Part shown: one piece after another, positions 5,679-31,819 of the stretch | Numbering within the stretch: the first letter of the stretch is position 1 | Layout of the letters: each line of letters begins with the position of its first letter | DNA from: a virus | IMG/VR virus record: IMGVR_UViG_3300041409_000318 | Location: 1 to 33,984 of that record | Reading direction: 5' to 3' (one strand) | Length of the DNA: 33,984 bases | Program-made: the position numbers and the translations under genes | Notes under the pieces: model-generated | The model's database searches: none | Seen by the model: only the letters and a program-made list of their open reading frames with translations | Told to the model about the DNA's origin: nothing

Positions 5679-6083
5679 ATGGCCAATGCACTGTTCGACC
5701 CGGGCCGTGAAGGCTTCCTCGACGGCTCCATCGACTGGGACACCGACGACGTTCGCGCCATGTTGGTGCTGTCTTCGTACAGCTTCAGCGCGGCGCACCG
5801 GTTCATTTCCGACCTGGGCGCGGTGGACAACGGCCGCAGTGCGGCGTTGGGGGGCAAAACCGTGACCAACGGCGTCGCGGATGCCAACGACACCACGCTG
5901 GTGGCGACGGCCGCGACCGCAAGCAAGGCGATCATTTTGTTTAAACACACCGGCGCGGATGGCACTGCCAGGCTGATCGGCTACATCGACACGCCAACCT
6001 CCGGCCTGCCGTTCACGCCAGCGGCCGGACAGACGGTGAACATCGCCTGGGATAACGGCGCCAACAAGATCTTCAAGTTGTAA
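5679..6083 (+). CDS. Conserved phage structural-type protein
   Basis: 134-residue protein of a type common in structural clusters of proteobacterial siphophages, function unknown. It opens with MANALFDPGREGFLDG and an acidic DWDTDDVRAML segment. Alternating short strands follow (TLVATAATASKAIILF), then a C-terminal PAAGQTVNIAWDNGANKIF motif, a pattern suggesting a compact beta protein. It starts 3 bases after the preceding stop, and its TAA overlaps the next ATG (TAATG). A virion decoration or tail-associated role is plausible from its neighbours but unproven. A GTTTAAAC palindrome lies inside the gene at 5939-5946, encoding Leu-Phe-Lys. Confidence 0.72.
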   Translation: MANALFDPGREGFLDGSIDWDTDDVRAMLVLSSYSFSAAHRFISDLGAVDNGRSAALGGKTVTNGVADANDTTLVATAATASKAIILFKHTGADGTARLIGYIDTPTSGLPFTPAAGQTVNIAWDNGANKIFKL

Positions 6084-6367
6084 TGGGGGCGACCGTAGAC
6101 GGCACCCTGTCGTTCGGCGCCGACCCAGGCACCAACGAGCCGGCAGTCGCCACGGTGGCGGCGGCCGGCTGCGTGGCTGGCTCGGCGGCGGAAGCCTTCG
6201 TGCAGTCCAACAGCACGGCGTCCAATTCCGTAGACGATCATTTGACCCTGGCAGCGCTGGCGCGCTTCAGTTGCGAGCCGCAAACCAACCAGGTGCTGGT
6301 GACCTGCGTGGTCGATGGCGGCTGGTATGCGCAAGGCGATTTCGACATCAAAGTGGTCTGGAACTAG
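6083..6367 (+). CDS. Hypothetical protein, 94 aa
   Basis: Not recognised. The start overlaps the preceding stop as TAATG, indicating translational coupling. The protein is small and rich in Ala, Val and Thr, with a central LTLAALARFSCEPQTNQVL segment and a Trp-containing C-terminal strand (GDFDIKVVWN). Three cysteines are present (residues about 29, 64 and 75). It has no signal peptide or transmembrane segment. It probably belongs to the same structural sub-cluster as the genes on either side; a small beta-barrel virion component is a guess from composition. Confidence 0.62.
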   Translation: MGATVDGTLSFGADPGTNEPAVATVAAAGCVAGSAAEAFVQSNSTASNSVDDHLTLAALARFSCEPQTNQVLVTCVVDGGWYAQGDFDIKVVWN

Positions 6368-6376
6368 GAGAAGGCA

Positions 6377-7081
6377 ATGAGCTGGGGCATCAGACTACTC
6401 GGGCGCGATCTGGCCAGTTTTGGCGAGATCGGGCCGACGCATAAAGCGTTGGCGGTGCAGAGCCGACCGCTCGATTACGGCATCGGTGGCGCGGCCAAGG
6501 GGCAGTACAAAATCAGTGTGGTCACCGGCACCCTGGCGGCGGCGCTGGCTGCCGCGGCGCAGGTGTTCCAGTTCAAGTGGATTGCGGCGGGTTCGGATCT
6601 GGCGGTCATCCACAAGCTAAAAACCCGCTTTCTGCCGCTCACCCCGTTCACCGCCGCGACTCTGACCGACCATACGTCGTTCGATGCCTTCGTCTGCCGG
6701 CCGTTTGGTGCCGGTGGCGGTGGCACCACGCTCACCTTGACCGGCAATAACGCCAAGATGCGCACCAACATGGCCACCTCGCAGGCGCAGATCAACGTGT
6801 CCACCACGGCTGCACTCACCGCGGCCACCGGCATGGACACGCAGCCGTTTGACCAGAGCATCCGCAAGGGCAACCGGGTCAACCCGGCGGCGGCGACTGA
6901 AGAAGTGATCATGCCCACGATCGACGGCATGCAGTTCGAGCCCGACATGATGGACGGCGACCACCCGCTGGTGCTGGCACCCGGCGAAGGCCTTGTGATC
7001 CGCAACCGCACCGTGTGGCCGGCGGCCGGTACCGGGATCCTGCTCATCGAGCTGCGTTGGTCCGAGGTCGCCAGCTTCTAA
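6377..7081 (+). CDS. Conserved phage structural-type protein, 234 aa
   Basis: Follows a clear ribosome binding site (AGGAGAAGGC before the ATG). The sequence is predominantly beta-like with regular hydrophobic strands (AAQVFQFKWIAAGSDLAVIH, GEGLVIRNRTVWPAAGTG), ending in ILLIELRWSEVASF. Related proteins occur widely in siphophage structural regions without an assigned role, and the strand pattern would fit a jelly-roll virion subunit. There is no signal peptide. Its position between portal and capsid genes, next to other virion-like genes and the SAEAFG repeat protein, suggests a particle component, perhaps a capsid or tail surface protein. The precise function is unknown. Confidence 0.68.
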   Translation: MSWGIRLLGRDLASFGEIGPTHKALAVQSRPLDYGIGGAAKGQYKISVVTGTLAAALAAAAQVFQFKWIAAGSDLAVIHKLKTRFLPLTPFTAATLTDHTSFDAFVCRPFGAGGGGTTLTLTGNNAKMRTNMATSQAQINVSTTAALTAATGMDTQPFDQSIRKGNRVNPAAATEEVIMPTIDGMQFEPDMMDGDHPLVLAPGEGLVIRNRTVWPAAGTGILLIELRWSEVASF

Positions 7082-7094
7082 GCCGGGTTTTTTA
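7071..7094 (+). terminator. Weak possible terminator
   Basis: CCAGCTT and AAGCCGG can pair imperfectly (one A-C mismatch, very tight loop) and are followed by GTTTTTTAAA just before the next ATG. The T run is convincing but the stem is marginal. Confidence 0.25.
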
Positions 7095-7098
7095 AAGC

Positions 7099-7866
7099 AT
7101 GTCCCTGATCCTCGCGCTGCTGAGCGGCGGCGGTGGCGCGGCGTCGATCATCGGCGCCGGCGGCATCGCCAGCGCCGAGGCCATCGGCCAGCCGGCGGTC
7201 TCGGCCAATGTTGTAACCACAGGCATCGTTAGCGCCGAGGCGTTCGGCGGTACGGTCATTTCGGCGTCGGTAATTAACGCCGGCGGGATTGCTTCGGCTG
7301 AGGCCTTCGGTGCATCGGCGGTTGCGGCGACGATTGCCGCGACGGCAATTGCCAGTGCCGAGGCCTTCGGGAGCATTAGCGCCGCGGTTGTCGTCGCCGG
7401 CGGCAGCACGGTCAGCGCGGAAGCGTTCGGCCAGCCGGTTATCAGCGCCAACATCGGCGCAAGCGGGATTGCGGGGGCGGAGGCGTTCGGCGGCAGCACC
7501 CTCGCCGCGCAGATTGCAGGCGCCGGCGGGATCGCGACCGTAGAGGCATTCGGCCAGCCGGTGGTATCAACCGGTGTAGCCGCGCAGGACATCATCGGCG
7601 CCGGCGGCATCACGAGCGCGGAGGCCTTCGGGCAGCCGACGATCAGCGCCGTTGGCAGCGCAACGCAACCAGGCGGCGGCTGGCGGCCTCGACGGCCGCT
7701 GCCGGATTACGAGCCGTACACGCCGTTTGTGGTGCCGTTATGGCCGCACCAGATTGGCGGCGCCGGCGGGATCCATAGCGCCGAAGCATTTGGCCGGCCG
7801 ACGGTGACCGCGCGGCGTGATGTGCGACGCCGGCGCGAGGAAGAGATCGAACTGCTCGCTGCCTGA
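7099..7866 (+). CDS. SAEAFG-repeat protein
   Basis: 255-residue protein built almost entirely from a repeat of about 20 residues with the core G-I-x-S-A-E-A-F-G-x-P-x-V/I-S-A. Nine cores are visible, with their central Glu at residues 27, 47, 68, 88, 108, 128, 149, 175 and 229. The first eight are nearly contiguous. A Trp/Pro-rich linker (about 190-218) separates the ninth, and the C-terminus is Arg/Glu-rich. Similar SAEAFG-type repeats occur in other phage virion-region proteins. The alternating small hydrophobic pattern suggests stacked beta strands, like a beta-solenoid or fibre. The first residues (SLILALLSGGGGAASII) are hydrophobic but lack a basic start, so export is not supported. Copy number may vary between relatives. 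Function unknown; a surface or fibre role is inferred. Confidence 0.75.
   Translation: MSLILALLSGGGGAASIIGAGGIASAEAIGQPAVSANVVTTGIVSAEAFGGTVISASVINAGGIASAEAFGASAVAATIAATAIASAEAFGSISAAVVVAGGSTVSAEAFGQPVISANIGASGIAGAEAFGGSTLAAQIAGAGGIATVEAFGQPVVSTGVAAQDIIGAGGITSAEAFGQPTISAVGSATQPGGGWRPRRPLPDYEPYTPFVVPLWPHQIGGAGGIHSAEAFGRPTVTARRDVRRRREEEIELLAA
7156..7806 (+). repeat. Nine 60-base coding repeats (SAEAFG units)
   Basis: DNA region encoding the nine SAEAFG units. Most spacings are exactly 60 or 63 bases, one is 78 and the last is 162. Copies differ at many third positions (for example AGCGCCGAGGC, TCGGCTGAGGC and AGTGCCGAGGC), so the protein pattern is better conserved than the DNA. This implies old duplications under selection rather than recent slippage. 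Confidence 0.8.
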
Positions 7867-7928: not shown

Positions 7929-10043
7929 ATGCTTAAGCGCTTCGTATCGTTGCAAACCGAGGACCTCGGTCGCGCGGAAAAAAACGCGGCCGGCGATCTG
8001 ATCGTGCCCATGGCGTTCTCGTCGGAGCTACCGGCGCAGCGCTGGTGGGGCATCGAGATCCTCGACCACGCCGACACCAGCATCCGCCTGGAGCGCCTGA
8101 AGGATGGCGCGCCGCTGCTGTTCAACCATACGCGCGGCGACATTCGCGGCACCCATGAGGCGTCTTCTATTCGCCTCGACAAGGACCGCGTGCTGCGCGG
8201 CAAGGTGCGCATTACCGCGTCCACCCAGGTGGGCCGCGACACGATCGGCCTGGTGGAAACCAAGATCCTGACCAAGGCCTCGATCGGTTATCGCGTCCAC
8301 AAGGTGATCGAGCAAACCACCAAAAAAAGCGACACCGGCGAGCTTGTCGAAGTCTCGCGCGAGATCGCCGGCGACACCTTCGAGCGCCTGATCGAAGACT
8401 TCGAGAGCCGCGGGGCCCGCGTGTCCGACCGGGGGGAATTCCGCCGCTCGCTGGATGCCAAGGTCGGCCCGTTTACCCGGAACGACGACGAAGAGCCGGT
8501 GTATCGGGTCGTCGACTGGGAGCCGATTGAAAATTCGCTCGTTGATATTCCGTTGGATAACACCGTCGGAGTCGGGCGCAGTGCAGAAGTAGAAGTACCG
8601 GCGCGGATTTCCCGCACCGTTGTTAATCCGGCGGTCACCGCCAATTTGATAAAGGAAACCAGTATGAGCAAAGATGCAGCGCTGGCGGCCGAAGCGGAAG
8701 CCGCCGAGAAACAACGTGCAGAACGCGCCGCCCAGGAACGTGCCGAACGCGAAGCGCAGGAAAAACTGCAACGCATGTCGGCCACCGAGCTGGAGGCGGG
8801 GCGTGTGCGCGCCATTTCCAACCTGGCCAAGGCGAACAGCATTCCGGACAACATCCGCGACACCTGGGTGCGTCAGGGTTACGGCCTCGAGGAAGTCAGC
8901 AACGACATCCTCAAGGTGCTCGAGGAGCGCGGCAAGTTCAACCCGCAGCCGGCGAGCCGACTGGGCTTGACCGGGCAGGAGGTGCAGCGCTTCAGCCTCG
9001 GGCGCGCGATTCTCGCCGCCGCCAGCAAGGACAACGACTGGTCCAAGGCCGGCTTCGAGCTGGAGTGCTCGAAATCGGTGGCGCAGAAGATGGGCAAGAT
9101 TGCCGAGCCGCACAAGTTCTACATCCCGTTCGAGGTGATGGAGCGCCAGTACGATCCGTTCGAGCTGATGATGGGCCGCATGCGCATGGGCAACGGCCAG
9201 CGCGACCTGACGGTCGGCACGGCCGGCGCCGGAGGCTTCCTGGTGCAGACCGACAACATCGGCTTCATCGAGATGCTGCGCAACCGCTCGGTGGCTTTCA
9301 TGATGGGCGCGCGGCGCCTGTCCGGCCTGCAGGGCAGCGTCACCGTCCCGCGGCAGTCGGCGGCCGCCACCGCAGTGTGGCTGGCCAACGAAGCCTCGCA
9401 GGCGACCGAGAGCCAGCAGACCTTCGTGCAGATGGCGATGGCGCCGAAGAGCGTCGGTGCCTACACCGAGATCAGCCGGCAGCTGCTGCTGCAAAGCTCA
9501 CCCGGGGCGGAAGGCATCGTCACCGATGACCTGGCACAGGTGGTGGCGATCGCCGCCGACCTGGCGGTGCTGGAAGGCACGGGCGCAGGTGGCCAGCCGA
9601 CCGGTATCTCCGGCACGGCGGGTATCGGCTCAGTGACCGGCACCGCGCTTGCGGCCGCCGGCATCATCGAGTTCCAGACCGACGTCGCGAGCTCCAACGT
9701 CCAACCGTTGCGCGGTGGCTACATCACCACTCCGGCGGTCGCGGGGTTGCTGATGGTGCGTCCGGAACTGCCGTCCACGGGCACCGAGCGGCTGTGGAAG
9801 GGCAACATCTGGGACGGCTCGATGTTCGACCTGCCGGCCAAGACTTCCAACCAGTTGACCGCCGCCTCCATGATCTTCGGCGACTGGAACGAAGTGGTGG
9901 TGGGCGAGTGGGGTGTGCTCGAAGTCGAGGTCAACCCCTACGCCAACTTCCAGGCCGGCATCATCGGCGTGCGCGCGATCTACTCGATGGACGTCGGCGT
10001 TCGCCGTCCGTTCGCGTTCTCGCGCGCAACCTCGATCACCTGA
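7929..10043 (+). CDS. Prohead protease-major capsid protein fusion
   Basis: One 704-residue polyprotein. Residues 1 to about 200 form an HK97 gp4-like (U35) prohead protease, with candidate catalytic His67 in LLFNHTRGD and Ser118 in LTKASIGYRV. Residues about 246-310 form a charged coiled-coil delta/scaffold-like segment (AEKQRAERAAQERAEREAQ). The remainder is an HK97 gp5-type major capsid protein, with GAGGFLVQTDN, an A-domain around GQPTGISG, and a C-terminal GIIGVRAIYSMDVGVRRPFA. The fused protease would cleave the scaffold and itself after prohead assembly. An internal ATG at 8664, preceded by AAAGGA, falls exactly at the start of the scaffold-like segment and could yield free capsid protein. 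Fusions of this kind are known in other phages; no separate scaffold gene is visible. Confidence 0.92.
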   Translation: MLKRFVSLQTEDLGRAEKNAAGDLIVPMAFSSELPAQRWWGIEILDHADTSIRLERLKDGAPLLFNHTRGDIRGTHEASSIRLDKDRVLRGKVRITASTQVGRDTIGLVETKILTKASIGYRVHKVIEQTTKKSDTGELVEVSREIAGDTFERLIEDFESRGARVSDRGEFRRSLDAKVGPFTRNDDEEPVYRVVDWEPIENSLVDIPLDNTVGVGRSAEVEVPARISRTVVNPAVTANLIKETSMSKDAALAAEAEAAEKQRAERAAQERAEREAQEKLQRMSATELEAGRVRAISNLAKANSIPDNIRDTWVRQGYGLEEVSNDILKVLEERGKFNPQPASRLGLTGQEVQRFSLGRAILAAASKDNDWSKAGFELECSKSVAQKMGKIAEPHKFYIPFEVMERQYDPFELMMGRMRMGNGQRDLTVGTAGAGGFLVQTDNIGFIEMLRNRSVAFMMGARRLSGLQGSVTVPRQSAAATAVWLANEASQATESQQTFVQMAMAPKSVGAYTEISRQLLLQSSPGAEGIVTDDLAQVVAIAADLAVLEGTGAGGQPTGISGTAGIGSVTGTALAAAGIIEFQTDVASSNVQPLRGGYITTPAVAGLLMVRPELPSTGTERLWKGNIWDGSMFDLPAKTSNQLTAASMIFGDWNEVVVGEWGVLEVEVNPYANFQAGIIGVRAIYSMDVGVRRPFAFSRATSIT
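8652..8666 (+). promoter_or_regulatory. Internal ribosome binding site and ATG for capsid alone
   Basis: AAGGA at 8652-8656 lies 7 bases upstream of an in-frame ATG at 8664 inside the protease-capsid gene, at the domain boundary before the coiled-coil segment. Initiation here would give a 459-residue scaffold-plus-capsid protein (8664-10043) lacking the protease, supplying the large capsid excess needed. This is the logic of nested genes such as lambda C/Nu3. The position makes chance less likely, but use of the site is not proven. Confidence 0.6.
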
Positions 10044-10426: not shown

Positions 10427-10804
10427 ATGTTGAACAATGAAGCGCAAGCCGCAACCAGCACCAAGCTGCTCGATCCCGTATCGGCCGCCGCCACCGTCAA
10501 TGCGACATCGGCCTGGGTCGACGTCCGTGACATCGAGGGCGACCTCATGTTCGTCAACCAGGTCGGCGCCCTGACCGGCTCGATCACCTGGACGATCGAA
10601 GACGCCACCGACATCGGCGGCACGGGTGCTGCCGGCATGACACCGAACGAAGGCGCCTATTCCGCAGGTGCGGCCAACCAGATCCAGAAGCGCACGATCA
10701 ATGCCGGGGCATGCCGCGGCTTCGTGCGCTGCGTGGGCACCATCGTCACCGGCCCGGCGCTGGTGGCGGTAAGCGTCCACGGCCGCAAGAAGTGGACGAC
10801 CTGA
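10427..10804 (+). CDS. Capsid-adjacent protein, possible decoration protein
   Basis: 125 residues following CAGGAG at proper distance. The sequence is beta-rich and polar (SAWVDVRDIEGDLMFVNQVG, SITWTIEDATDIGG), with a C-terminal ALVAVSVHGRKKW strand. Small beta proteins directly after a capsid gene are often decoration or cement proteins. No specific family is recognised, so that label is an inference. It is the last gene before a strong terminator and before the differently composed Ntn-hydrolase cassette. A GTTTAAAC palindrome lies at 10405-10412, just upstream of the ribosome binding site. Confidence 0.65.
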   Translation: MLNNEAQAATSTKLLDPVSAAATVNATSAWVDVRDIEGDLMFVNQVGALTGSITWTIEDATDIGGTGAAGMTPNEGAYSAGAANQIQKRTINAGACRGFVRCVGTIVTGPALVAVSVHGRKKWTT

Positions 10805-10837
10805 TCGCGGAAAACGCTTAAGAGCGCCACAAAGGAG

Positions 10838-10864
10838 GGGCCGGCAGCAATGCTGGCCCTTTTT
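10838..10864 (+). terminator. Strong intrinsic terminator
   Basis: GGGCC-G-GCA pairs with TGC-T-GGCCC around a GCAA tetraloop (one G-U pair), followed by TTTTT. It is among the cleanest terminators in the window. It separates the capsid segment from the Ntn-hydrolase cassette. Confidence 0.82.
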
Positions 10865-10963
10865 ATTCCAAGGGCACTACAGGCGCGACTAGGGGGCACC
10901 CGAAAGCCGGTTTCCTGACCGGTTGTCGCGTCTTCATATCAGGGCTTCGACAGGGGGAAGCGT

Positions 10964-11512
10964 ATGACATGCATCGTTGCTTTGCGCCATGAGGGCGTAA
11001 TTTACATGGGTTGCGATTCGGCTGGTGTAGCTGGTTATGGCCGCGCCAACCGCGTTGACCCGAAGATCTATCGTGTAGGCGAAATGCTGATCGGATTCAC
11101 GACGTCGTTTCGCATGGGGCAGCTCCTGGGCTACTCCCTGACATTGCCGAAGCATCACAGCGATGTGCCGGTCGAGAACTATATGGCCACCGCTTTTATC
11201 AACGCAGTTCGGGATTGCCTGAAGACCGGCGGTTTTGCGGAGAAAGAAAAGGATGCGGAGCGTGGCGGTACATTTCTCGTGGCGTATCGCGGGCGGATTT
11301 TTGAAGTAGAGAGCGATTATCAGGTCGGCGAAAGACTCGAGTCGTTCAATGCCGTTGGCTGCGGGGTTGATCTTGCCCTGGGGTCGCTCGCGACCTCGGC
11401 GGCCGACAGCAACATGACGCCGCGCTTGCGTGTGGAGCTTGCTCTTAAAGTTGCTGCTGACTTTTCGGCCGGCGTTTATCCGCCGTTTCGCGTTGAGGAA
11501 TTGCGCGCATGA
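10964..11512 (+). CDS. HslV/proteasome-like Ntn-hydrolase peptidase
   Basis: Predicted threonine peptidase of the proteasome/HslV fold. After removal of Met1, Thr1 would be the nucleophile (MTCIVALRHEG...GCDSAG). Counting from it, Asp17 and Lys33 fall at the HslV catalytic-core positions, and the first 35 residues align with E. coli HslV (recalled sequence) without gaps. Further matches are IGF after a short hydrophobic strand, AVGCG-DLALG for the HslV AIGSG-YA block (Ser replaced by Cys), and a C-terminal VELALKVAADF helix before VEEL. The length of 182 is close to HslV (about 175). A good ribosome binding site (AGGGGGAAG) precedes the ATG. Codons are visibly less GC-rich than the flanking head genes. 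No HslU-type ATPase is present in the window. The substrate is unknown. Confidence 0.85.
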   Translation: MTCIVALRHEGVIYMGCDSAGVAGYGRANRVDPKIYRVGEMLIGFTTSFRMGQLLGYSLTLPKHHSDVPVENYMATAFINAVRDCLKTGGFAEKEKDAERGGTFLVAYRGRIFEVESDYQVGERLESFNAVGCGVDLALGSLATSAADSNMTPRLRVELALKVAADFSAGVYPPFRVEELRA

Positions 11513-11700
11513 AAATCAGCGTAAAGGTCACGCTTCACCGCGGAGAGTTGGTCAGCGAAAAGACTGCCTCGGTCGAAATCGACTCGGAAAGCTATCTGGC
11601 CATAAGCGATGAAGAGATGTTGAAGCGCGACGCTGCACAGATAGAAAACGCCGCTGCCGCACTGTTCGCGGGCATTGCGGTCCAGACAGTGAAGGCCTGA
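11509..11700 (+). CDS. Partner of the Ntn hydrolase, 63 aa
   Basis: Starts inside the stop of the peptidase gene (ATGA overlap), so the two are co-translated. The N-terminal half reads as beta strands (KISVKVTLHRGELVSEKTAS), followed by a helical half rich in Ala and Glu (EEMLKRDAAQIENAAAALF). No family is recognised. It shares the less GC-rich codon use of the peptidase gene. It could be an adaptor, inhibitor or substrate-delivery factor for the peptidase, but only the linkage supports this. Confidence 0.68.
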   Translation: MKISVKVTLHRGELVSEKTASVEIDSESYLAISDEEMLKRDAAQIENAAAALFAGIAVQTVKA

Positions 11701-11705
11701 CTGCC

Positions 11706-12014
11706 ATGTTCACCGAAGACCTGACCGCGTTTTTCCAGACGGCGGATTTTGCTTATGCCGCCACCTGGACGCCGGCGGCCGGGGGCGGGCCGTACACGGT
11801 CAACGTGATTTTCGACAACGCCTATCGCGAGTATGGGCTGGGCGAAGCCGACCAGGCGGGGCGCGCGCCGCAGTGCGAGGCTCCCGACGACCAGCTGGCA
11901 CAGGGCAGCGGCATGAAGCGCGGCGACACCCTCGTCATTAACAGCATCACGTACAAGGTCGGCAACGTCGAGGCGGACGGCACCGGCGTTTCGCTCATCA
12001 CGTTGAAAACCTGA
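11706..12014 (+). CDS. Head-tail joining protein (gpFII-like)
   Basis: 102-residue protein that fits the lambda gpFII/head-tail attachment family. It has an N-terminal FTEDLTAFFQTADFAYAATW segment, a central strand with FDNAYREYGLG, and a C-terminal barrel half with GDTLVINSITYKVGNVEADG and a final LITLKT. Such proteins sit at the bottom of the head connector and create the tail docking surface. It lies 5 bases after the cassette and in front of the tail-terminator region, the expected position. Codon use returns to the GC-rich pattern of the head genes. Confidence 0.75.
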   Translation: MFTEDLTAFFQTADFAYAATWTPAAGGGPYTVNVIFDNAYREYGLGEADQAGRAPQCEAPDDQLAQGSGMKRGDTLVINSITYKVGNVEADGTGVSLITLKT

Positions 12015-30339: not shown

Positions 30340-30639
30340 TCATGGCATCGCTACTTGCTTAGATGGAAACGAGCAGGTAGGGCAGATGCAGTAGCCTCGC
30401 GGAGCGCCGTCCTCAGGTGGAAAGATCAGTGCCGGCTCCCCGCACTGGGTGCAATCGCATGGTGAAGGGAGCATCCCAATCTCGCTATAGAGTAGTCCGC
30501 TGTTTGGCGCTCGGACGTTTCGCTGTGTCCAAGCACGCATAGTTCTGACTACCCATGGCGTAATCTTTTGCCCGCGGCGTTTGGCCTGTTCGATGCGCTC
30601 GTCGACTGGATCCTGAGCCGGAAAAAGCGATAGGGTCAC
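30340..30639 (-). CDS. Cys-rich small protein, 99 aa
   Basis: The GTG start at 30639 overlaps the Gp37/Gp68 gene stop (GTGA). The N-terminal part is helical and basic (DPVDERIEQAKRRGQKITPW, VVRTMRAWTQRNVRAP). The C-terminal part has cysteine pairs in PCDCTQCGEPALIF and YCICPTCSFP, a likely zinc ribbon. Longer readings from upstream ATGs would run antisense-like through the preceding gene and are rejected. No family is recognised. Codons are less GC-rich than in the integrase genes. Confidence 0.68.
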   Translation of the reverse strand: MTLSLFPAQDPVDERIEQAKRRGQKITPWVVRTMRAWTQRNVRAPNSGLLYSEIGMLPSPCDCTQCGEPALIFPPEDGAPRGYCICPTCSFPSKQVAMP

Positions 30640-31526
30640 GCCGGATACTCCATGTGCTCGCGGCCATCGAGCAGGCGGCCGGCGGCTTTCTTGCCCAGCC
30701 GCTGCAGTTGAACTGCGCCAGGCTCGTTCATCAGTATCGGTGGATTGCCTGTCGGCCCCCACTCCCCCCATTGCTTGAAAAAGAACGGTACGCCGGCCGC
30801 CGCGCATTGATCGCGCAAGGACCGGAACCATTCCGGGTGTGAGGGCCGCGCCTTGGGGCCGGATTCGCCGCCGGCGATTACCCAATGCAGATCACGTTTG
30901 ATCGGTCGGCCGTGGACGGTGAAGACGGCGGGACCAGGCGCAAGATTCCCATGTGCCGGTAAAGTAGAATTCATGGCGGCCTGAATGTCGATTGGCCCGA
31001 GCAGCGGTTCGCACGACAGGAAGCGCACCGCGGCCGGTGTCTGCAGCAGCAGCGGGATGCGCTCGTCGGCGGTGGCCTGGTCCTCGACGCTGACGCCCCA
31101 CCAGATATTGCGCGGCGGTTCCTCTTCGCCAGCCTCGACCGGTTCGCCGATCAACTGCCACATGCGCTCCGGCCGCTTGGTCAGCACCTGGAAAGTGTGC
31201 CAGTGCGCGCGGGCCATGATGCTGAACACGTCGAAGATAAAATCGTCGGGCACGTCCTCGTGGAACAGGTCGGACATGGAGTTCACGAAGATGCGGCGCG
31301 GCTTTTTCCAGTGCAGCGGCGCGTCGAGGCGGGATGGATGGCAGAGCACATCGGTGAACAGGCGAGGGCGCGACTCGCGCGACGGTGCCTCTGACAAGAT
31401 TGTCTGGCCGGCAAACACCTTCGGCGCGAGGCGCTCGGCATAGCAATTCTTGCAGCCCTGGCTGATCTTGGTGCAGCCGGTCACAGGGTTCCAGGTGGCG
31501 TCGGTCCATTCTATTTTCGTGCTCAT
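30636..31526 (-). CDS. Gp37/Gp68 family (DUF5131) three-Cys protein
   Basis: The start is the ATG at 31526; the reading frame extends further upstream but that part is Arg-rich antisense noise over neighbouring genes. The protein has 296 residues with N-terminal KIEWTDATWNPVTGC and cysteines C18, C25 and C28 (GCTKISQGCKNCYAER). HWKKPRRIFVNSMSDLFHED, HTFQVLTKRPERMW, NIWWGVSVEDQ and a WVIAGGESGPKARP block follow. These are diagnostic of the phage Gp37/Gp68 family. The three cysteines resemble a radical-SAM-like cluster site. The frequent partner TcmP is not visible in the window. Function unknown; modification chemistry is suspected for the family. Confidence 0.88.
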   Translation of the reverse strand: MSTKIEWTDATWNPVTGCTKISQGCKNCYAERLAPKVFAGQTILSEAPSRESRPRLFTDVLCHPSRLDAPLHWKKPRRIFVNSMSDLFHEDVPDDFIFDVFSIMARAHWHTFQVLTKRPERMWQLIGEPVEAGEEEPPRNIWWGVSVEDQATADERIPLLLQTPAAVRFLSCEPLLGPIDIQAAMNSTLPAHGNLAPGPAVFTVHGRPIKRDLHWVIAGGESGPKARPSHPEWFRSLRDQCAAAGVPFFFKQWGEWGPTGNPPILMNEPGAVQLQRLGKKAAGRLLDGREHMEYPA

Positions 31527-31819
31527 CGCTTTGCCCCTTCCTCGCCGTCCTTCAACCGCCAGACGCGCACACCGACGTTGCCGATCTTGCGCACGGTGAT
31601 CTTGATTCCGAGCTTCTTGGCCCGGGTGTAGAAGCTCCCGGGGTTGAGAATGCCGCGGGCGAAGAACGATTGACCGGGCTGCAGCTGGCTCATGGGCCAG
31701 CGCTCGTCGATGCCGTTCTTCTTCAGCTCCGGCGCCGGGATCGGGATGCCATTGTCGATCGTCACCCCGTTGCGGATCTCGCCGTCGCTGAGCAAATGCA
31801 CGACGCGCGGGCGTGTCAT
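31523..31819 (-). CDS. Conserved small phage protein, 98 aa
   Basis: ATGA overlaps on both sides. The central part reads DNGIPIPAPELKKNGIDERW, then PMSQLQPGQSFFARGILNPG, and the C-terminal part KKLGIKITVRKIGNVGVRVW. Proteins with this G-x-P-I-P...P-M-x-x-L-x-x-G-Q-S-F-F...K-L-G-I-K...V-R-V-W-R pattern occur in phage early regions and have no known function. It is basic at the end and may bind nucleic acid. It is directly upstream of, and probably co-translated with, the Gp37/Gp68 protein. Confidence 0.72.
   Translation of the reverse strand: MTRPRVVHLLSDGEIRNGVTIDNGIPIPAPELKKNGIDERWPMSQLQPGQSFFARGILNPGSFYTRAKKLGIKITVRKIGNVGVRVWRLKDGEEGAKR

Follow-up and report, generated by a model that had tools for sequence, protein, structure and literature searches.

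The window analysed here is a stretch of 33,984 bases that makes up one virus record. The phage is lambda-like and temperate, with a gpA-type terminase, a lambda-type portal, an S78/HK97 capsid fusion, a decoration-like gene, a gpFII-type connector, tail genes and an integrase. Between the decoration-like and gpFII-type genes, in the position and on the strand that an earlier note on this DNA had given, lies a gene for a proteasome-like protein that we assign to the AAH family. The locus contains the following features.

7929-10043, plus strand: S78 prohead-protease/HK97-type capsid fusion (PF04586, 7e-8; PF05065, 9e-30)
10427-10804, plus strand: decoration-like head gene, its role suggested by position (71-75% identity in the two closest relatives, L001 and L002)
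10837-10868, plus strand: intrinsic-terminator-like hairpin with a U-tract, between the decoration-like and AAH genes (RNA folds and sequence)
10952-10958, plus strand: Shine-Dalgarno-like AGGGGGA (sequence)
10964-11512, plus strand: AAH-type proteasome-like (Ntn) threonine hydrolase of 182 aa, with residue 1 after the Met as nucleophile
11509-11700, plus strand: 63-aa ORF of low GC, overlapping the AAH stop by 4 bp (ATGA)
11706-12014, plus strand: gpFII-type head-tail attachment protein (PF05354, 8e-19)

The ribosome-binding site of the AAH gene is good, and the product begins M-T-C-I-V-A-L; residues are numbered here from the one that follows the Met. No sigma-70-type promoter was found upstream of the gene. 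Counterparts of the hairpin occupy the matching position 5' of AAH in L001 and L002, and the three structures gave RNA folding z scores of -3.4, -4.8 and -5.3; a search for the hairpin in L093 and L094 did not find it. RNA folding detected the window hairpin and a terminator scan of the window did not, probably because the stem runs into the T-tract.

Base composition also sets the gene apart. At 56.6% its GC content falls in the 1.8th percentile, the window as a whole having 64.7%; the ORF directly downstream has 54.7%. This small ORF had no family match and no recognisable counterpart in L002, and is a possible cassette partner of AAH. The low GC of both reading frames and the hairpin upstream have the look of a moron cassette; a low-GC AAH gene behind a terminator hairpin, as in such cassettes, is a new observation in this phage.

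Elsewhere in the window, four ORFs lie between the portal and the capsid fusion (5679-7866), and within this interval 7099-7866, which matches a minor tail PHROG, is made up of repeats like IASAEAFGxPxVSA. An ORF on the minus strand (30636-31819) presumably resembles the phage Gp37/Gp68 radical-SAM-like family.

Sequence searches and predicted fold

Searches with the single sequence gave only one match, to PHROG 1040 'peptidase HslV family' (5e-22), and none in Pfam, NCBIfam or PDB sequences. When a profile of 88 relatives was compared with the sequences of solved structures, it matched BPH, the betaproteobacterial proteasome homolog, over its full length (4e-5), and HslV (5e-5). The AlphaFold2 model (mean pLDDT 96.5, pTM 0.91) has two central sheets, helices H1 (49-58), H2 (70-88), H3 (135-145) and H4 (153-167), and a last strand at 176-181. 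The protein is thus predicted to be a complete subunit with the Ntn alpha-beta-beta-alpha fold, the feature for which the earlier note had proposed structure prediction as a check. An S78 prohead protease fold was rejected, as the window protein has the Ntn fold instead.

Structural comparison with Foldseek and VIA-align placed BPH at the top (TM 0.82; Z 21.6, 2.1 A over 171 residues, 5OVT), followed by HslV (Z about 20) and then by proteasome beta subunits. The top matches were proteasome-family chains only, and connectase and Anbu were absent among the matches listed.

Catalytic residues are invariant among homologues

Residue counts cover 144 non-redundant homologues and exclude five Rhizobium tropici-type copies that an internal stop interrupts. 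The active-site positions in the window gene, all on the plus strand, are as follows.

10967-10969, plus strand: Thr1, putative N-terminal nucleophile after Met removal (144/144 homologues)
11015-11017, plus strand: Asp17, catalytic triad (144/144 homologues)
11063-11065, plus strand: Lys33, catalytic triad (144/144 homologues)
11093-11095, plus strand: Gly43, aligned with the oxyanion-hole Gly47 of the proteasome (144/144; HslV/BPH alignment)
11360-11362, plus strand: Cys132, replacing proteasome Ser129 (GCG versus GSG; Cys in 132/144, Ser in 6, Val in 6)

Thr1, Asp17 and Lys33 therefore sit where the earlier note had counted them to be, and both outcomes that it had named as decisive, the fold and the conservation of these residues among homologues, spoke for it. 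The key of the genome scan was the GFTSSFRM motif, and one viral pattern of the two contained Asp17; the search thus did not itself require an invariant Thr1 or Lys33. A start codon stands immediately 5' of Thr1 in all 165 complete copies (ATG 142, GTG 12, TTG 9, ATT 2). The family signature, TTSFRMGQLL, comes directly after Gly43. When the window gene is compared with the four relatives closest to it, dN is 0.16-0.25, with dS near or beyond saturation, and these values point to strong purifying selection that has kept the active site. Residue invariance and the fold together rule out chance similarity, and a triad that never varies rules out a catalytically dead subunit. A phage-encoded proteasome-like threonine hydrolase is upheld by three lines of evidence: fold, invariant triad and profile homology.

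The cysteine that had been spotted in the window protein proved to be a family-wide replacement, and the six homologues with Val at this position are Dactylosporangium copies. In the proteasome, Ser129 hydrogen-bonds the Thr1 amine and forms a second proton relay with Asp166 (PMC4792962). The replacement of Ser129 by Cys (GCG) across the AAH family is new here, and may weaken that second relay.

Assignment to the AAH family

In 2021 Fuchs, Alva and Lupas described 22 new proteasome-like families, and reported AAH from alpha-proteobacteria, Actinobacteria, Firmicutes and many phages, with no suggestive genomic context (PMC8665760). The relatives that we found come from Rhizobium, Sinorhizobium and Mesorhizobium plasmids, Azospirillum, Frankia, Dactylosporangium, Paenibacillus, Pelosinus and phages. 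The phage setting, once considered unexpected, is not: both AAH and PPH were described from phages in 2021 (PMC8665760), and 181 phage records encode a relative. AAH has therefore been known from phages since then, and the novelty of the present case is modest. A literature search for AAH found no experimental work, function, structure or assay.

Our tree comprised AAH relatives with HslV, PrcB, Anbu, one BPH and one PPH-type protein. It placed the window protein within the AAH clade (95/87), apart from HslV (100/98), proteasome beta and Anbu, and inside a group of five virus sequences with a support of 100/100; the BPH and PPH-type rows stand on flagged long branches, so that their exact placement is unsure. 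Like AAH, the protein has the catalytic triad and oxyanion Gly, H1-H4, a compact subunit and a distribution that takes in alpha-proteobacteria, Actinobacteria, Firmicutes and phages. The modelled architecture is that of a compact group I subunit, with H1-H4, no insertions and no C-terminal S12/H5. No defining difference was found, and we file the protein as AAH with one reservation: the basis is distribution, architecture and tree, the published reference WP_035979212 itself not having been directly compared.

Other proteasome-like families fit less well. PPH is likewise a phage-borne proteasome-like subunit with Thr1/Asp/Lys, but its members have about 140 residues and lack H2 (PMC8665760), and the PPH-type protein of CcrColossus, read from the genome, has 141 aa. 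PPH was rejected for the window protein, with its 182 aa and an H2 at residues 70-88, on grounds of size and of this helix. Anbu was rejected for the absence of its C-terminal H5 extension, as the model ends with the strand at 176-181. Connectase lacks H1/H2 and carries a helical insertion between S3 and S4; the model has H1/H2 and no S3-S4 helical insertion, and connectase too was set aside.

BPH (5OVS, 5OVT, 5OVU) is the best solved-structure match, at 23% identity, and resembles the window protein in the absence of HslU contacts and of a propeptide. AAH differs in having GCG for GSG and the SFRMGQLL motif, and BPH falls outside the AAH clade, but as a single row on a long branch. By alignment only, the acidic pore run of BPH corresponds to a loop of mixed charge in AAH, AEKEKDAER. 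BPH binds epoxomicin and lacks HslU-interface residues, and the purified protein was inert on standard substrates, casein included (Fuchs et al., PMC5777263).

Relationship to HslV and HslU

HslV needs HslU. The likeness of the window protein to HslV comprises the fold, Thr1/Asp17/Lys33, a Gly-X-Gly block (AVGCG, against IGSG in HslV) and a first stretch of 35 residues that aligns gaplessly, as had been noted from the sequence. A further likeness proposed for the C-terminal EEL did not survive comparison with the relatives, which end in VLNTS, FETL, CLSQP and other sequences, and is not an AAH feature. The C-terminal YTN block of HslV is in AAH replaced by SAGVxPPF. In the alignment, HslV positions 28, 35, 54, 57, 61 and 80 are all replaced in AAH; positions 28, 35 and 61 were included as presumably relevant. 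Residues 54, 57 and 80 of HslV contact the HslU tail (PMC6429459), and here AAH has Q for F54, G or R for F/L57, and D or a variable residue for K80.

With an HslU model, none of 54 virus records that carry AAH, some of them complete phage genomes, had a hit above the cut-off, and inspection of the window's ORF list by eye found no hslU-like ORF. Among 45 AAH-bearing bacterial genomes, HslU was over the cut-off in 26; the 19 with none over the cut-off are all Actinobacteria, and since AAH occurs in these genomes, HslU cannot be a general requirement of the family. We conclude that the protein is not HslV proper: it forms part of a separate clade, its HslU-tail contacts are replaced and no hslU partner was found in the window or, over the cut-off, in the related virus records. 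Of the original designation as an HslV/proteasome-like peptidase, the proteasome-like part stands and the HslV part does not; the observation itself was true and well supported, rightly called proteasome-like and misfiled as HslV.

Placement of AAH among phage genes

The window, L001 and L002 share the gene order capsid fusion, decoration-like gene, AAH, gpFII-like gene and tail terminator. Identity to these relatives is 79% for AAH, against 48-59% for the capsid and 44-53% for the portal. In 41 of 68 non-redundant viral loci, at most five genes separate AAH from a terminase, portal, protease/capsid or other head/connector gene, a count inflated by virus contigs that are partly recognised by their head genes, and for which the ORF labels set a lower bound. 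Among the 29 contigs with a length of 30 kb or above, 11 show the same proximity, all of them about 35-63 kb long; none of the eight contigs above 65 kb does. Adjoining genes are mostly portal, terminase, head-maturation protease and head-morphogenesis PHROGs. That phages of about 35-63 kb often have AAH within their terminase-portal-protease-capsid region is new here, and is a small addition to Fuchs et al. In large phages (T5-like, Vibrio, Ochrobactrum) the gene stands among nucleotide-metabolism genes, and the Azospirillum copy is an ordinary gene of the chromosome.

Proposed mechanism and alternatives

The reading that we favour, and consider somewhat better than an even bet, is that removal of Met exposes Thr1 of an ATPase-independent, BPH-like peptidase of narrow specificity, carried as moron-like cargo and not for capsid maturation. 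We infer Met removal, assembly, peptidase activity, the kind of substrate, ATPase independence in this phage and the cargo role as follows. Met-Thr is a normal methionine-aminopeptidase substrate, and formyl-Met would be removed after translation to expose Thr1 without propeptide cleavage. Lys33, oriented by Asp17, would activate the Thr1 hydroxyl for attack on a peptide (amide) bond; the amide of Gly43 would form the oxyanion hole, and Cys132 would stand where proteasome Ser129 touches the Thr1 amine. Judging by the family, the subunits would probably assemble via H1-H4 into a closed or double-ring BPH-like particle, which would work without HslU and might admit only particular peptides or already unfolded proteins. 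Since purified BPH binds epoxomicin yet is inert on standard substrates, narrow specificity is likelier than bulk degradation. Among the modes of action listed in the earlier note, acting alone like BPH is the best supported, and the capsid protein already carries a fused S78 protease, which makes degradation of scaffold unlikely. For the same reason the AAH protein is unlikely to be the head-maturation protease; as the S78 domain already covers capsid maturation, we prefer, with low confidence, a role as moron-like cargo lying between head genes and outside that process.

A doubtful alternative is a head-morphogenesis enzyme, active late in infection, whose target for trimming or crosslinking would be a portal, connector or decoration protein. 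The identical position between head genes in the window, L001 and L002, an identity above that of capsid and portal, and the frequency of head and packaging genes nearby (mainly portal, terminase, protease and head-morphogenesis PHROGs) speak for it, and in other phages, too, AAH is often found in the head module, which could reflect a function tied to the head. Against it stand the phage's own S78-capsid fusion, the co-occurrence of AAH with protease/capsid genes elsewhere, the copies in large phages and in the Azospirillum chromosome, and the inflation of the count by short IMG/VR contigs recognised via head genes. We think it unlikely that AAH is an ATPase-free, self-compartmentalised virion-assembly threonine hydrolase or ligase, kept by many temperate phages within the terminase-portal-capsid region, that processes one head/connector protein, with Cys132 as a family-specific proton-relay change. 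A non-peptidase Ntn enzyme, whether a specific amide hydrolase or a connectase-like protein ligase with one defined substrate, is also rather unlikely: BPH assays on standard substrates were negative, AAH activity is unreported, the change from Ser129 to Cys alters the environment of the Thr1 amine, and the wider family does include the ligase connectase (PMC8665760), but the H1-H4 architecture of AAH, without insertion, is not that of connectase.

Improbable as a separate explanation, though compatible with the favoured reading, whose role it narrows, is a lysogen-benefit or counter-defence moron, in which the peptidase degrades a defence, stress or competing-phage protein. Low GC, the upstream terminator, a temperate phage with an integrase and a tree in which the gene has moved repeatedly between phages and bacterial replicons agree with it; a PADLOC search gave no match for AAH, and the missing promoter counts against it. 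Least credible is that the protein stands in for HslV itself, docking onto the HslU (or ClpX) of the host and so diverting the host's protein degradation. The protein shares its fold, triad and compact subunit with HslV, and the 26 AAH hosts with HslU include many proteobacteria and Bacillota, but the HslU-tail contact positions are not conserved, the protein lies outside the HslV clade and relatives persist in the 19 genomes without HslU.

Returning to the ATPase-independent peptidase, the occurrence of AAH in HslU-free hosts, the lost HslU contacts and the change from Ser129 to Cys together narrow the mechanism to consider. The phage AAH opens the question of what role proteasome-like particles have without an ATPase, and an ordinary-sized phage member beside genes of well-understood timing and products offers a tractable genetic system.

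AAH copies in other genomes

Among 248 Rhizobiaceae genomes, AAH was present in 7 and nifH in 14, with both in 3, one of which was the genome on which the sample was centred. In all three (L019, L021 and L008; genomes G055, G139 and G085) AAH and nifH share a contig, 8-24 kb apart. On symbiosis plasmids AAH may therefore travel with the nif region, a link to nitrogen fixation that is suggestive, with too few cases to claim. Five copies on R. tropici-type symbiosis plasmids (L008, L031, L032, L034 and L035) share an in-frame stop after residue 38 (counting Met as 1), which appears to be a shared nonsense mutation of this lineage; the R. mayense and R. calliandrae copies are complete. The Azospirillum-type gene is apparently an inherited, domesticated chromosomal copy, and a gene near AAH common to 16 such loci (e.g., L054, L061, L064 and L072) is presumably ElbB-like.

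Two phage loci bear on the N-terminus. In Vibrio phage henriette 12B8 a peptide deformylase is encoded three genes before the AAH relative (L011, 2633-3130), and could help in freeing Thr1. In Moorella phage MTATph1 (L004, 5001-5558) the start indicated here precedes the annotated start of the HslV-family gene by 42 bases, and the annotated protein therefore lacks the catalytic Thr1.
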